64,000 nucleotides of DNA from Marinitoga hydrogenitolerans DSM 16785. Its GTDB lineage: Bacteria > Thermotogota > Thermotogae > Petrotogales > Petrotogaceae. A program made the position numbers and the translations under genes. The stretch is taken from NCBI RefSeq assembly GCF_900129175.1, contig NZ_FQUI01000003.1, forward strand, positions 1 through 64,000. Direction: 5' to 3'. Shown here in pieces: positions 43 through 18,957 of the stretch. The notes under the pieces are model-generated. The model had not been told where the DNA came from and made no database searches. It saw nothing but the letters and a program-made list of their open reading frames with translations. Numbering within the stretch: the stretch's first letter is position 1; the number at the start of each line of letters is the position of its first letter.

Positions 43-118
43 TGGGGTGGCATGTGGGATTTGAACCCACGACATCCTGATCCACAGTCAGGCGTTCTAC
101 CACTGAACTAATGCCACC
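43..118 (-). tRNA. tRNA-His (GTG)
   Basis: A full cloverleaf reads on the minus strand. The acceptor GTGGCAT pairs with ATGCCAC, the anticodon loop is CTGTGGA (anticodon GTG), and the T arm carries GGGTTCAAATCCC. There is a G at position -1 opposite C73, the identity element of tRNA-His. CCA is encoded at 45-43. It is the last of four tRNAs in one transcript. Confidence 0.97.
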
Positions 119-138
119 ATCACTAAATAAAAATAAGG

Positions 139-215
139 TGGCGCGCCCAGAGGGACTCGAACCCCCAACCCTTGGATTAGAAATCCAATGCTCTATCCTA
201 TTGAGCTATGGGCGC
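139..215 (-). tRNA. tRNA-Arg (TCT)
   Basis: A cloverleaf reads on the minus strand. The anticodon stem is TTGGA/TCCAA with loop TTTCTAA, so the anticodon is TCT (AGA codons, common in this AT-rich genome). The discriminator is G73 and CCA is encoded at 141-139. It abuts the Gly tRNA with no gap. Confidence 0.97.
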
Positions 216-291
216 TGGAGCGGCCGACGAGACTCGAACTCGCAACCCCTGGCTTGGAAGGCCAGTGTTCTACCAATTGAACTACAGCCGC
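216..291 (-). tRNA. tRNA-Gly (TCC)
   Basis: A cloverleaf reads on the minus strand. The anticodon stem is CTGGC/GCCAG with loop CTTCCAA, so the anticodon is TCC. T73 and an encoded CCA (218-216) are present, and the next tRNA begins at the following base. Confidence 0.97.
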
Positions 292-314
292 ACTTTTAAA
301 AAGTCGCCACCTTC

Positions 315-390
315 TGGTCGGAGCGACTGGGATCGAACCAGCGACCTCCGGTTCCCAAGACCGGCGCGCTACCATCTGCGCTACGCTCCG
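315..390 (-). tRNA. tRNA-Pro (TGG)
   Basis: A cloverleaf reads on the minus strand. The acceptor CGGAGCG pairs with CGCTCCG, and the 5' C is typical of bacterial tRNA-Pro. The anticodon loop is CTTGGGA (TGG). CCA is encoded at 317-315. It is the first tRNA of the transcript. Confidence 0.97.
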
Positions 391-16144: not shown

Positions 16145-16822
16145 TTATGCAGCGTGTACAATTTCACCGTCTTCTATCCTTATAATTTTATCACAATATT
16201 TTGAAATAACAAGTGTATTATGTGAAATCATTAAAGTGGTTATATTAAGTTCTTTGTTTATTCTTAATGTTAATTCCATAATTTTTTCAGTAACTCTTGG
16301 ATCTAAAGCAGCAGTATGTTCATCTAATAATAACAATTTTGGTTTAGACATAGTTGCCAGTATTAAGGCAAGAGCCTGTTTTTGTCCACCAGACAATTCT
16401 TTTACTTTTGTATTCAATCTTTTTTCTAACCCCATATCTAATCTTTTTAATAAGTCTAAGGAAGGTAATTTTCCGAATTTAAAAAATCTTAAACCTTTTT
16501 TTGCACCTAAAATTAAATTTTCTTTTATGGTTAAATCAGGAAATACACCCATGTCAGGATTTTGATATACAATACTAATCATTTTTGAAAGTTGAAAGGG
16601 TGTAGCGTTATTCATATTTTTATTATTTATTATATAATCGCCTTTTAAGGGTTTTACCAATCCCATTAAAACTTTGAATAGGGTAGATTTGCCTGCCCCA
16701 TTAGAACCAATAATTGTAATAAAATCTCCACTATTTATTTTCAAATTAAAATTCTTTAAACCAATTTTTTCATTGGTTTTTCCGTGGTTGTAAATGACAG
16801 TGATATTTTTGAGTTCAACCAT
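16145..16822 (-). CDS. ABC transporter ATPase (TrpZ/COG1101-like)
   Basis: A 225-residue ATP-binding subunit. Walker A is GSNGAGKST (39-47), the signature is LSGGQKQ (143-149), Walker B is LLLLDEHTAALD (163-174), and the switch His is in ISHNTLV. The LSGGQKQALALILATM pattern is typical of the ATPase that pairs with COG2984 binding proteins and COG4120 permeases (TrpXYZ-type importers). AGGTG precedes the ATG. The first 67 bases overlap the end of the permease gene in another frame, which suggests translational coupling. Confidence 0.93.
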   Translation of the reverse strand: MVELKNITVIYNHGKTNEKIGLKNFNLKINSGDFITIIGSNGAGKSTLFKVLMGLVKPLKGDYIINNKNMNNATPFQLSKMISIVYQNPDMGVFPDLTIKENLILGAKKGLRFFKFGKLPSLDLLKRLDMGLEKRLNTKVKELSGGQKQALALILATMSKPKLLLLDEHTAALDPRVTEKIMELTLRINKELNITTLMISHNTLVISKYCDKIIRIEDGEIVHAA

Positions 16823-17745
16823 TTTTTCACCTCCGAATTTCTTAAAGATATTACAATTATTATAAACAATGCAGTTGCTAATTTTAGGTCACTTGCTTTG
16901 AACCCTATATTATATCCGTATTTTATAACCATGCTTATTATAACTTGATATAATATCCCACCAATAAGAGGGGCAGGGATTTTTAATAAGAAATCACTTT
17001 TAAAAACAATTTCTCCTAAAATGACAGCAGCTAATCCCGTAACTAACATACCCTGTCCCATATTTACATCTGAAAAACCGGCATAAATAGAAAATAAGCC
17101 ACCGCTTATACCAACTAAAAAATTTCCTATAGATAGACCTAAAATACTTATAATATCAGGATTTACACCTATTGTTAAAACACCTTGCTTGTTTGAACCA
17201 AATGCTCTTAATAATGTTCCCAATTCTGTTTTAAGAAATAAATAATATAATAAAAATATAAGAATAGTTATAAAGGATAATTTTAAAAGAGCATAGGTTT
17301 CAAATGGATTAACAAATGAAAATGAAGCATCTTTTCCTAATGTGACATTATTATTATTTTCTAATAAAAAATCTAATTTTGTTCCAGAAAGATTTACAGA
17401 TGATTCCACTGATGTTTTTGGTAAAGATAAATTTGGCCCATTCATTATTCTAATATTTATCGAATAAAGCATAATCATTACCAAAATACTTGCAAGCAAG
17501 GGATTTATTTTTGCTTTAGTATGAATTAACCCTGTAAAAAAACCAGAAATACCGGCAAATATTCCACCAATTAATAGTGCGAAAATCCAATGAATATTAT
17601 TGTGTAATAATATAACAGTTATTGATCCGCCTAAAACATAGGAACCATCTGTTGTTAAATCTGGAGTGTCTATAATCTTAAAGGTAGTAAATACACCGAG
17701 AGACAGTATGGCCAATATTATACCTTGTTCAATAATTTCGATCAT
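16756..17745 (-). CDS. ABC transporter permease (TrpY/COG4120-like)
   Basis: A 329-residue inner-membrane permease with about nine hydrophobic segments. It has the family glycines and the loop TPDLTTDGSYVLGGSITVILL after the first membrane segment. It forms the channel for the binding protein and ATPase on either side. The C-terminal 22 residues are encoded in the overlap with the ATPase gene, are charged, and have no hydrophobic character. They may be a readthrough tail. It starts 4 bp after the binding-protein stop codon, with a GAGGTGA site overlapping that stop. Confidence 0.93.
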   Translation of the reverse strand: MIEIIEQGIILAILSLGVFTTFKIIDTPDLTTDGSYVLGGSITVILLHNNIHWIFALLIGGIFAGISGFFTGLIHTKAKINPLLASILVMIMLYSINIRIMNGPNLSLPKTSVESSVNLSGTKLDFLLENNNNVTLGKDASFSFVNPFETYALLKLSFITILIFLLYYLFLKTELGTLLRAFGSNKQGVLTIGVNPDIISILGLSIGNFLVGISGGLFSIYAGFSDVNMGQGMLVTGLAAVILGEIVFKSDFLLKIPAPLIGGILYQVIISMVIKYGYNIGFKASDLKLATALFIIIVISLRNSEVKKWLNSKISLSFTTTEKPMKKLV

Positions 17746-17749
17746 ATAT

Positions 17750-18685
17750 TCACCTCACAATAGTATCGGCAACATTTAAAAGTGACTCTGGAATGTCAAT
17801 ATTAAATCTTTTAGCAGATTTTAAATTTATTAATAAATTCAACGCACTCATATCCATGGTTTTAGACTCTAAATCTGAAGGGTTTTTTCCATCTATAATT
17901 TCATTTGCCATTTTACCAGTTTCTAAACCTAATGAGTAATAGTCAAAGCCAAAGCCGATAACGCTTTTTGCTTGTTTAGCTAGTTCAATATCTCCAGAAA
18001 TAGAAGGGATAGAATTATCATTAAGTATTTTAGACACACTTTCCATTGAAGAAGCAAGGAGATTGTCTGTGAAAATATATACAACATCAATATCTTTTAT
18101 TTTTGTATTTAACGAAGTTATCATCTCAGAAGATGTTGTTCCTGGGATTTCTATTATATTTAAATTCAAATCTTTTGCAAATTTTTTTGATAATTCCAAT
18201 AATGTTTTTGAATTTTGTTCTCCGGGATTAAAAATAATTCCAACATTATGAGCTTTTGGAAAAACCTTTTTCAATAATGACAAATGAACATTTACAGGAA
18301 GAAGATCGCTTAAACCAACGATATTTCCTTCGTTTTTTCCAAATCTTTTTATTAAACCAGCACTAATAGGATCAGTTACAGCCGAAAATATTAAAGGCTT
18401 ATCTTTAATAGTATTAGCAGCAGCTTGTGCGCTTGGTGTAGTTATTGCAATTATAATATCTGCAGAATTTTTAAATTCTTGAGCAATAGAGACAGCATTT
18501 TGATATGACCCTTGAGCATTTTGAAAAACTATTTTAACCTCAGGATGCTTTTCTTTAATAGTTTTAATAATAGCGTCTTTTACCTGATTTAAAGCTGGAT
18601 GATCTACAATTTGTGTAATACCAACTGTTAGAGAAAATCCTGTTAAAGTAACTAATAATACTACTAATAACGCCAACTTTTTCAT
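17750..18685 (-). CDS. ABC transporter substrate-binding protein (COG2984, TrpX-like)
   Basis: A 311-residue periplasmic binding protein with a signal peptide (MKKLALLVVLLVTLTGFS, cleaved near residue 18-19). There is no lipobox cysteine, so it is free in the periplasm or held by the toga. The mature start VGITQIVDHPALNQVKDAI and the FAVTDPISAGL-like stretch (SAVTDPISAGLIKRFGKNEGNIVG) are typical of the COG2984 family, several members of which import tryptophan or tyrosine. The leader peptide upstream carries four Tyr codons and one Trp codon, which points to an aromatic amino acid, most likely tyrosine. GGAGGTG precedes the ATG. Confidence 0.92.
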   Translation of the reverse strand: MKKLALLVVLLVTLTGFSLTVGITQIVDHPALNQVKDAIIKTIKEKHPEVKIVFQNAQGSYQNAVSIAQEFKNSADIIIAITTPSAQAAANTIKDKPLIFSAVTDPISAGLIKRFGKNEGNIVGLSDLLPVNVHLSLLKKVFPKAHNVGIIFNPGEQNSKTLLELSKKFAKDLNLNIIEIPGTTSSEMITSLNTKIKDIDVVYIFTDNLLASSMESVSKILNDNSIPSISGDIELAKQAKSVIGFGFDYYSLGLETGKMANEIIDGKNPSDLESKTMDMSALNLLINLKSAKRFNIDIPESLLNVADTIVR

Positions 18686-18740: not shown

Positions 18741-18772
18741 AAAAAAAGGTGGATGCCATTTGGCATCCACCT
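18741..18772 (-). terminator. Attenuator terminator upstream of the aromatic amino acid ABC operon
   Basis: On the minus strand AGGTGGATGCCA (18772-18761), loop AA, TGGCATCCACCT (18758-18747), then seven U. It lies between the leader peptide stop codon (18788) and the binding-protein start (18685), so it controls entry into the operon. Confidence 0.95.
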
Positions 18773-18787
18773 GCATTAACCTCACAC

Positions 18788-18898
18788 CTAAACAAATATG
18801 ACAAAAGAGGCATGGAGGTCATCTTTGTGGATGCCCTTACCATACCAATAATAATAGCTATTTATATTTTTAATTTGAAAAATTTTATTAATACTCAT
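18788..18898 (-). CDS. Leader peptide with Tyr-Tyr-Tyr-Trp-Tyr (transcription attenuation)
   Basis: A 36-codon open frame on the minus strand: ATG at 18898, TAG at 18790-18788, preceded by GGGGTG 6 nt upstream. Codons 15-19 are TAT TAT TAT TGG TAT (18856-18842). It starts about 30 bp after a consensus promoter and is followed 15 nt after the stop by a terminator. I infer a regulatory leader of the trp/his type: slow decoding of Tyr codons would favour the antiterminator. The peptide itself has no recognisable fold. Confidence 0.88.
   Translation of the reverse strand: MSINKIFQIKNINSYYYWYGKGIHKDDLHASFVIFV
18809..18846 (-). promoter_or_regulatory. Leader hairpin and antiterminator segment (Tyr leader)
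   Basis: On the minus strand GGTATGG (18846-18840) can pair with CCATGCC (18815-18809), seven pairs with one G-U. The 5' arm begins in the Trp18 and Tyr19 codons. The loop holds GGGCATCCAC (18836-18827), nearly identical to the terminator 3' arm. Nine of its bases can pair with the terminator 5' arm (18770-18762). A ribosome stalled on the Tyr codons would cover the hairpin base and leave this segment free to disrupt the terminator. Confidence 0.8.
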
Positions 18899-18928
18899 AA
18901 TATACACCCCTAAAATAAATTTGAATAT

Positions 18929-18957
18929 ATTGTATCATATGTTACATTGTATGTCAA
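18929..18957 (-). promoter_or_regulatory. Promoter of the leader and ABC operon
   Basis: On the minus strand TTGACA (18952-18957), 17 bp, TACAAT (18929-18934), 30 bp ahead of the leader start codon. Confidence 0.9.

Follow-up and report, generated by a model that had tools for sequence, protein, structure and literature searches.

The window analysed here, a 64,000-nucleotide stretch of the Marinitoga hydrogenitolerans DSM 16785 genome, carries on its minus strand an ABC transporter operon preceded by a leader that combines a short open reading frame, alternative RNA pairings and an intrinsic terminator. Listed in the direction of transcription, the features of this locus are the following:

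18957-18929, minus strand: sigma-70-type promoter, TTGACA-17-TACAAT
18898-18788, minus strand: leader peptide ORF of 36 codons plus stop, encoding MSINKIFQIKNINSYYYWYGKGIHKDDLHASFVIFV
18856-18842, minus strand: putative regulatory codons 15-19, TAT TAT TAT TGG TAT (YYYWY)
18809-18846, minus strand: protector hairpin (A+B pairing with C), whose 5′ arm overlaps the Trp and last Tyr codons
18827-18835, minus strand: antiterminator arm B, GGCATCCAC, identical in sequence to the terminator 3′ arm
18807-18823, minus strand: segment C (GATGACCTCCATGCCTC), which pairs with A/B in the protector or with F in the inner antiterminator helix
18774-18789, minus strand: segment F, at and past the leader stop codon, pairing with C when the antiterminator forms
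18772-18747, minus strand: intrinsic terminator (D:E), with an 11-bp stem, a 4-nt loop and then a T tract
17750-18685, minus strand: substrate-binding protein, PF04392 (COG2984 type)
16756-17745, minus strand: ABC transporter permease, PF02653 (BPD_transp_2)
16145-16822, minus strand: ABC transporter ATPase, PF00005
15581-16120, minus strand: NUDIX hydrolase, probably the final gene of the transcription unit

The promoter is directly preceded by an alpha-amylase-type gene on the same strand (end 18972). It consists of TTGACA at 18957-18952, a 17-nt spacer and TACAAT ending at 18929, matches 11 of the 12 consensus positions with a TG ahead of the second hexamer, and ranks best among the minus-strand promoter matches across 4.7 kb; in relatives, a promoter-like sequence is found at the equivalent place. 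A Shine-Dalgarno-like GGGGTG lies 5′ of the leader ORF start. On the 3′ side of the terminator, the binding protein, permease, ATPase and NUDIX genes follow one another with small gaps, and the grouping of a PF04392 binding protein with a BPD_transp_2 permease and an ATPase makes this a COG2984/PF04392 (TrpXYZ-like) operon. A perfect, terminator-like inverted repeat at 15596-15571, between the converging NUDIX and EamA genes, is probably bidirectional. At the edge of the window (46-390, minus strand) lie four clustered tRNA genes. The consensus promoter, the 36-codon leader with Tyr-Tyr-Tyr-Trp-Tyr at codons 15-19 and the COG2984-type transporter behind it had all been proposed in an earlier note on this DNA and are borne out, as are the terminator and its T tract; the stem is 11 bp long, not 12 bp as that note had it.

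Folding of the leader RNA yields a protector hairpin, GGUAUGG...CCAUGCC, at about 18846-18809, with a free energy of -17.3 kcal/mol and a z-score of -3.1. Across 20 representative leaders, the protector mostly has z-scores between about -3 and -5, and RNAalifold also recovers this hairpin. The competing B:D pairing comprises 9 bp (GGCAUCCAC:GUGGAUGCC) at -17.2 kcal/mol, a value equalled in about 1/1000 shuffles. Both the hairpin and the nine-base pairing with the terminator 5′ arm had been anticipated; the analysis adds a second helix to the antiterminator, in which 18823-18807 pairs with the region that spans the leader stop codon and continues past it. Folding and comparison together define two mutually exclusive states: state T, made of the protector hairpin (A/B:C) and the terminator D:E, and state AT, in which the B:D helix encloses the C:F helix. 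With its terminator, the full T state amounts to -43.4 kcal/mol. When the codon run is masked in folding, most of the protector is gone and the antiterminator is left; placing the A site at the first codon of the run weakens the structure available before D from -22.4 to -15.4 kcal/mol, compared with -30.7 kcal/mol for the AT state. A truncated-transcript equilibrium model favours the antiterminator even without a ribosome, so that termination must depend on kinetics or the complete terminator. A per-codon equilibrium scan of ribosome positions, judged too crude for ribosome-position effects, mostly favoured the antiterminator and did not set the run apart from upstream positions.

This arrangement very probably reflects ribosome-mediated transcription attenuation of an operon for an ABC importer of aromatic amino acids, most likely with a preference for tyrosine. 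In the model that we infer, including its stalling step and kinetic order, scarcity of charged aromatic tRNA, here mainly Tyr-tRNA, would cause the ribosome to stall at YYYWY and to cover the base of the protector. Segments B and C would then be freed to pair with D and F, respectively, and formation of state AT before E is made would block the terminator and allow the operon to be transcribed. With ample charged tRNA, the ribosome would proceed toward the stop codon, the A/B:C protector would form, and the D:E terminator would end transcription near 18747.

A true binding protein is present in 40 of the 103 Thermotogota genomes searched, three further matches, weak and partial, lying outside these 40. 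The upstream regions of all true binding-protein genes, paralogs counted, make up 47 leaders, and every one of them contains a counterpart short ORF, in which three or more aromatic residues form a run at the same place, followed by a GC-rich terminator and the gene. Outside the run, aromatic residues account for 6% of leader positions. The two-helix antiterminator recurs in representatives of other genera. Column-wise covariation on MAFFT alignments was abandoned, the register of the pairing differing from genus to genus, and pairing was instead tested by swapping arms between the 20 representatives. Arms pair better with their own partner than with swapped ones, both for B:D (mean -14.9 versus -10.3 kcal/mol) and for C:F (-14.5 versus -9.0 kcal/mol); in each case 0/100000 permutations did as well, which does not represent an exact probability, some representatives being kin. 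The sequence comparison thus indicates that the leader architecture is more than chance and is kept in all 40 transporter-bearing genomes. The layout of ribosome-mediated attenuation claimed in the earlier note is upheld on this scale, the aromatic run, the alternative folds and the terminator being kept phylum-wide while sequences change. Where it expected relatives to keep the Tyr run and both pairings, the pairings and an aromatic run (47/47) are retained, tyrosine itself being found in 42 of the 47. Trp-only, WWWHL-type leaders (L015 and the trpE leaders described below) appear to place the antiterminator arm on the 3′ side of their first hairpin, which is nearer to the classical arrangement. 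In L015 (G011:C10), two tandem terminators separate the WWW leader from the binding-protein gene. Four genomes of the window genus (G002-G005) are without the transporter; they have no PheA or TrpA, and a TyrA match that is weak at best.

The leader peptide itself varies in ways that bear on how the run is read. The hairpin loops of the window and of L003/L004 differ in length by 1 nt, which shifts the frame past the run and results in unrelated C-termini (GIHKDDLHASF versus GIHKMTSIP). Within the run, L003 has lost one Tyr codon through an in-frame 3-nt deletion. The ORF of L005 stops early, inside segment B, and the homologous GACACCC segment of aroF leaders is read in a different frame (KTP versus KDT). 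Frame-shifted C-termini, in-frame run loss and the GACACCC frame change point to selection on the codons and on RNA pairing, and the unconserved peptide 3′ of the run speaks against a functional or arrest peptide, which this comparison disfavours. An arrest peptide of the TnaC type, in which free amino acid and nascent peptide would jointly stall the ribosome, is suggested by a short Trp-containing peptide ahead of a transport operon but is very unlikely, since the residues flanking the run are unconserved, run composition varies, close relatives read the C-terminal part in different frames, and stalling in excess would turn uptake on in plenty. It is even harder to believe in a T-box, riboswitch or another known structured leader RNA, for which the T-box control of this transporter family in Streptococcus (PMC9382623) would be the precedent: in an Rfam scan of the leader, about 190 nt long, nothing reached the gathering score (best L20_leader, 26.1 bits versus 58.7 required), and the T-box covariance model had no match in it, permissive E included. 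Copies of the Tyr-Tyr-Tyr-Trp string elsewhere in the genome (L033, L034) were rejected as chance matches in unrelated contexts.

A covariance model built from 12 transporter leaders recovers the window leader (E 2e-16) and its relatives, and also finds the leaders of DAHP synthase-tyrA (aroF-tyrA) operons in five genomes (E 1e-6 to 4e-9), with the runs FYYWYF, YYWYF, YYYWF, YYWYF and YYYYY. In four genomes, trpE or trpB leaders carry WWW, a run without Tyr or Phe, and the leader of a DAHP synthase gene adjoining the trp cluster of G007 carries WW. The Tyr-rich aroF-tyrA leaders and the WWW trp leaders thus indicate that codons track the pathway in Thermotogota. Pathway-matched codons accompanied by terminators are seen in L083-L087 (aroF-tyrA), L086/L091 (trpE), L088 and L095. 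Codon swaps also occur between paralogous transporter leaders (WWW, FAFAF, FSFF). The transporter copies of G011 have the runs FSFYFYYW, FSFF and WWW, the first two sharing the leader start MIKDNNKNLINIFSF; G039 and G051 each have Tyr, mixed and Phe-only copies, and G033 has mixed and WWW copies. The tandem copies of G011 (L035, G011:C5:126500-134500), with their common leader start and FSFYFYYW versus FSFF, form a natural codon-swap pair, in which a stretch of N breaks one of the genes. We lean, by a modest degree, toward a wider aromatic attenuator regulon that spans the phylum and covers importers, aroF-tyrA and trp operons, in which one RNA switch has been re-tuned by swaps of the codon run, duplicated importers gaining Phe-only, Trp-only or mixed runs alongside ligand-pocket changes, and a tyrosine-dominated attenuator exists.

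Leaders of the window genus have YYYWY or YYWY, that is, three to four Tyr, one Trp and no Phe. In most relatives, Tyr, Phe and Trp are mixed, and other runs include YFYFWYW, FFAYYWY, FAYYWWF, FAYAYWWF, YVYAYWF, VYYF, FYFYYFWW and AYY. Every single-copy transporter leader has Tyr in its run, while Trp or Phe is absent from some. The binding protein also bears on the cargo. CD0873 of Clostridioides difficile binds Tyr through Glu-263, replaced by Ala in Phe- and Trp-binding homologues, and Gln replaces its Tyr-279 in a Trp-binding homologue (PMC6816091). The window protein has Asp at the Glu-263 site, which would be chemically apt for Tyr binding, and Tyr at the Tyr-279 site; the latter is Tyr in 47/47 binding proteins and never the Trp-type Gln. 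All 42 Tyr-containing leaders precede a binding protein with Asp at the Glu-263 site (42/42). For the five Tyr-less leaders, this site is Phe in three, from two lineages, and Asp in two (L015 and L035_2772). The association between leader Tyr and pocket Asp (Fisher p 0.0006, relatedness ignored) suggests a link that is imperfect and involves few independent events. TyrA, PheA and TrpA have no match in the window genome, and 14/14 control genomes have matches; a need for all three amino acids is therefore predicted and Tyr is not singled out. Auxotrophy was accordingly dropped as a pointer to tyrosine, PheA and TrpA being missing as well as TyrA, and so was Trp synthesis based on a PF04715 match, which is probably pabB, TrpA being absent. 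Petrotogaceae genomes possessing all three pathways retain mixed runs.

Which amino acid is sensed can be argued in several ways. Tryptophan, after the usual family name TrpX, would have in its favour the single TGG codon of the run, the WWW leaders on two paralogs and the Trp regulation of Streptococcus suis TrpX via a T-box (PMC9382623). This reading is nonetheless improbable, given that three Tyr-containing leaders (L025, L030, L038_8487) have no Trp and that the second selectivity site holds Tyr rather than Gln throughout. The earlier note had also discounted tryptophan, on the ground that the Trp codon also forms a hairpin arm; this argument is weak, for the last Tyr codon likewise takes part in the hairpin base, and leaders with WWW occur. 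We regard as possible, short of probable, that the leader acts as an OR-gate in which Tyr, Phe and Trp charging are sensed alike on behalf of an importer of broad aromatic range, in which case the surplus of Tyr in the window would be drift. Most single-copy leaders mix all three residues, as in YFYFWYW and FAYAYWWF, and the predicted triple requirement of the window genome would suit such a gate, but the Phe-free, Tyr-dominated runs of the window genus, the Asp at the Tyr-selectivity site, and the Tyr-rich aroF-tyrA and pure-Trp trp leaders, which make composition seem selected, argue against it. A Tyr codon in a run may nevertheless go unsensed, since the Phe-Tyr-Phe AroR leader of C. glutamicum is reported to respond to Phe and not to Tyr (Neshat 2014, as cited in PMC11802643). 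The earlier proposal of tyrosine as the regulating and transported amino acid thus keeps the support of the Tyr runs, the Asp/Tyr pocket and the aroF-tyrA leaders, with the mixed runs of relatives standing against tyrosine alone. It is somewhat more probable than not that tyrosine dominates as signal and cargo in the window genus; as the sole signal it is unproven.

Published cases of leader-peptide attenuation come mostly from Proteobacteria and Actinobacteria, a few being known from Firmicutes (PMC2965389, PMC1262725), and the Rfam amino-acid attenuator models at the time of PMC3766115 were those for His, Leu, Thr and Trp. A search of the open-access literature yielded no account of leader-peptide attenuation in Thermotogota or on COG2984 transporters, nor of any attenuator dominated by Tyr. 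The present leaders would extend this kind of control to a phylum that branches deeply and is mostly thermophilic, to runs dominated by Tyr and to an importer. Where COG2984 transporters are poorly annotated, the likely ligand could be read from the codon run, and the paralogs are ready pairs, with the same RNA and different codons, for studying how regulatory specificity evolves.

Like trpL, pheL, ilvL and thrL of Proteobacteria, the Thermotogota leader has regulatory codons in a leader ORF, an antiterminator and a terminator that exclude each other, and a U tract at the terminator. It differs from them in its Tyr-dominated or mixed aromatic codons, in its transporter target, in having the antiterminator arm directly past the codons, within the 5′ portion of the protector, and in the nested C:F helix that joins the antiterminator. 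The aroR leader before aroF in C. glutamicum (Neshat 2014, cited in PMC11802643) is similar in its mixed aromatic codons, leader-peptide attenuation and aromatic gene, but belongs to Actinobacteria, has a biosynthetic target and is reported to respond to Phe, not Tyr. Streptococcus suis trpXYZ encodes the same transporter family, with aminoacyl-tRNA charging likewise read by transcription attenuation, but through a Trp-specific T-box that binds tRNA directly, with no leader ORF (PMC9382623). At the protein level, CD0873 is homologous to the window binding protein (E 3e-51) and has an acidic residue at the site of the Tyr hydroxyl and Tyr at the second site, the acidic residue being Glu where the window protein has Asp (PMC6816091). 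The attenuation mechanism itself is known; the phylum, the codon mix, the target and the nested antiterminator seem to be new.
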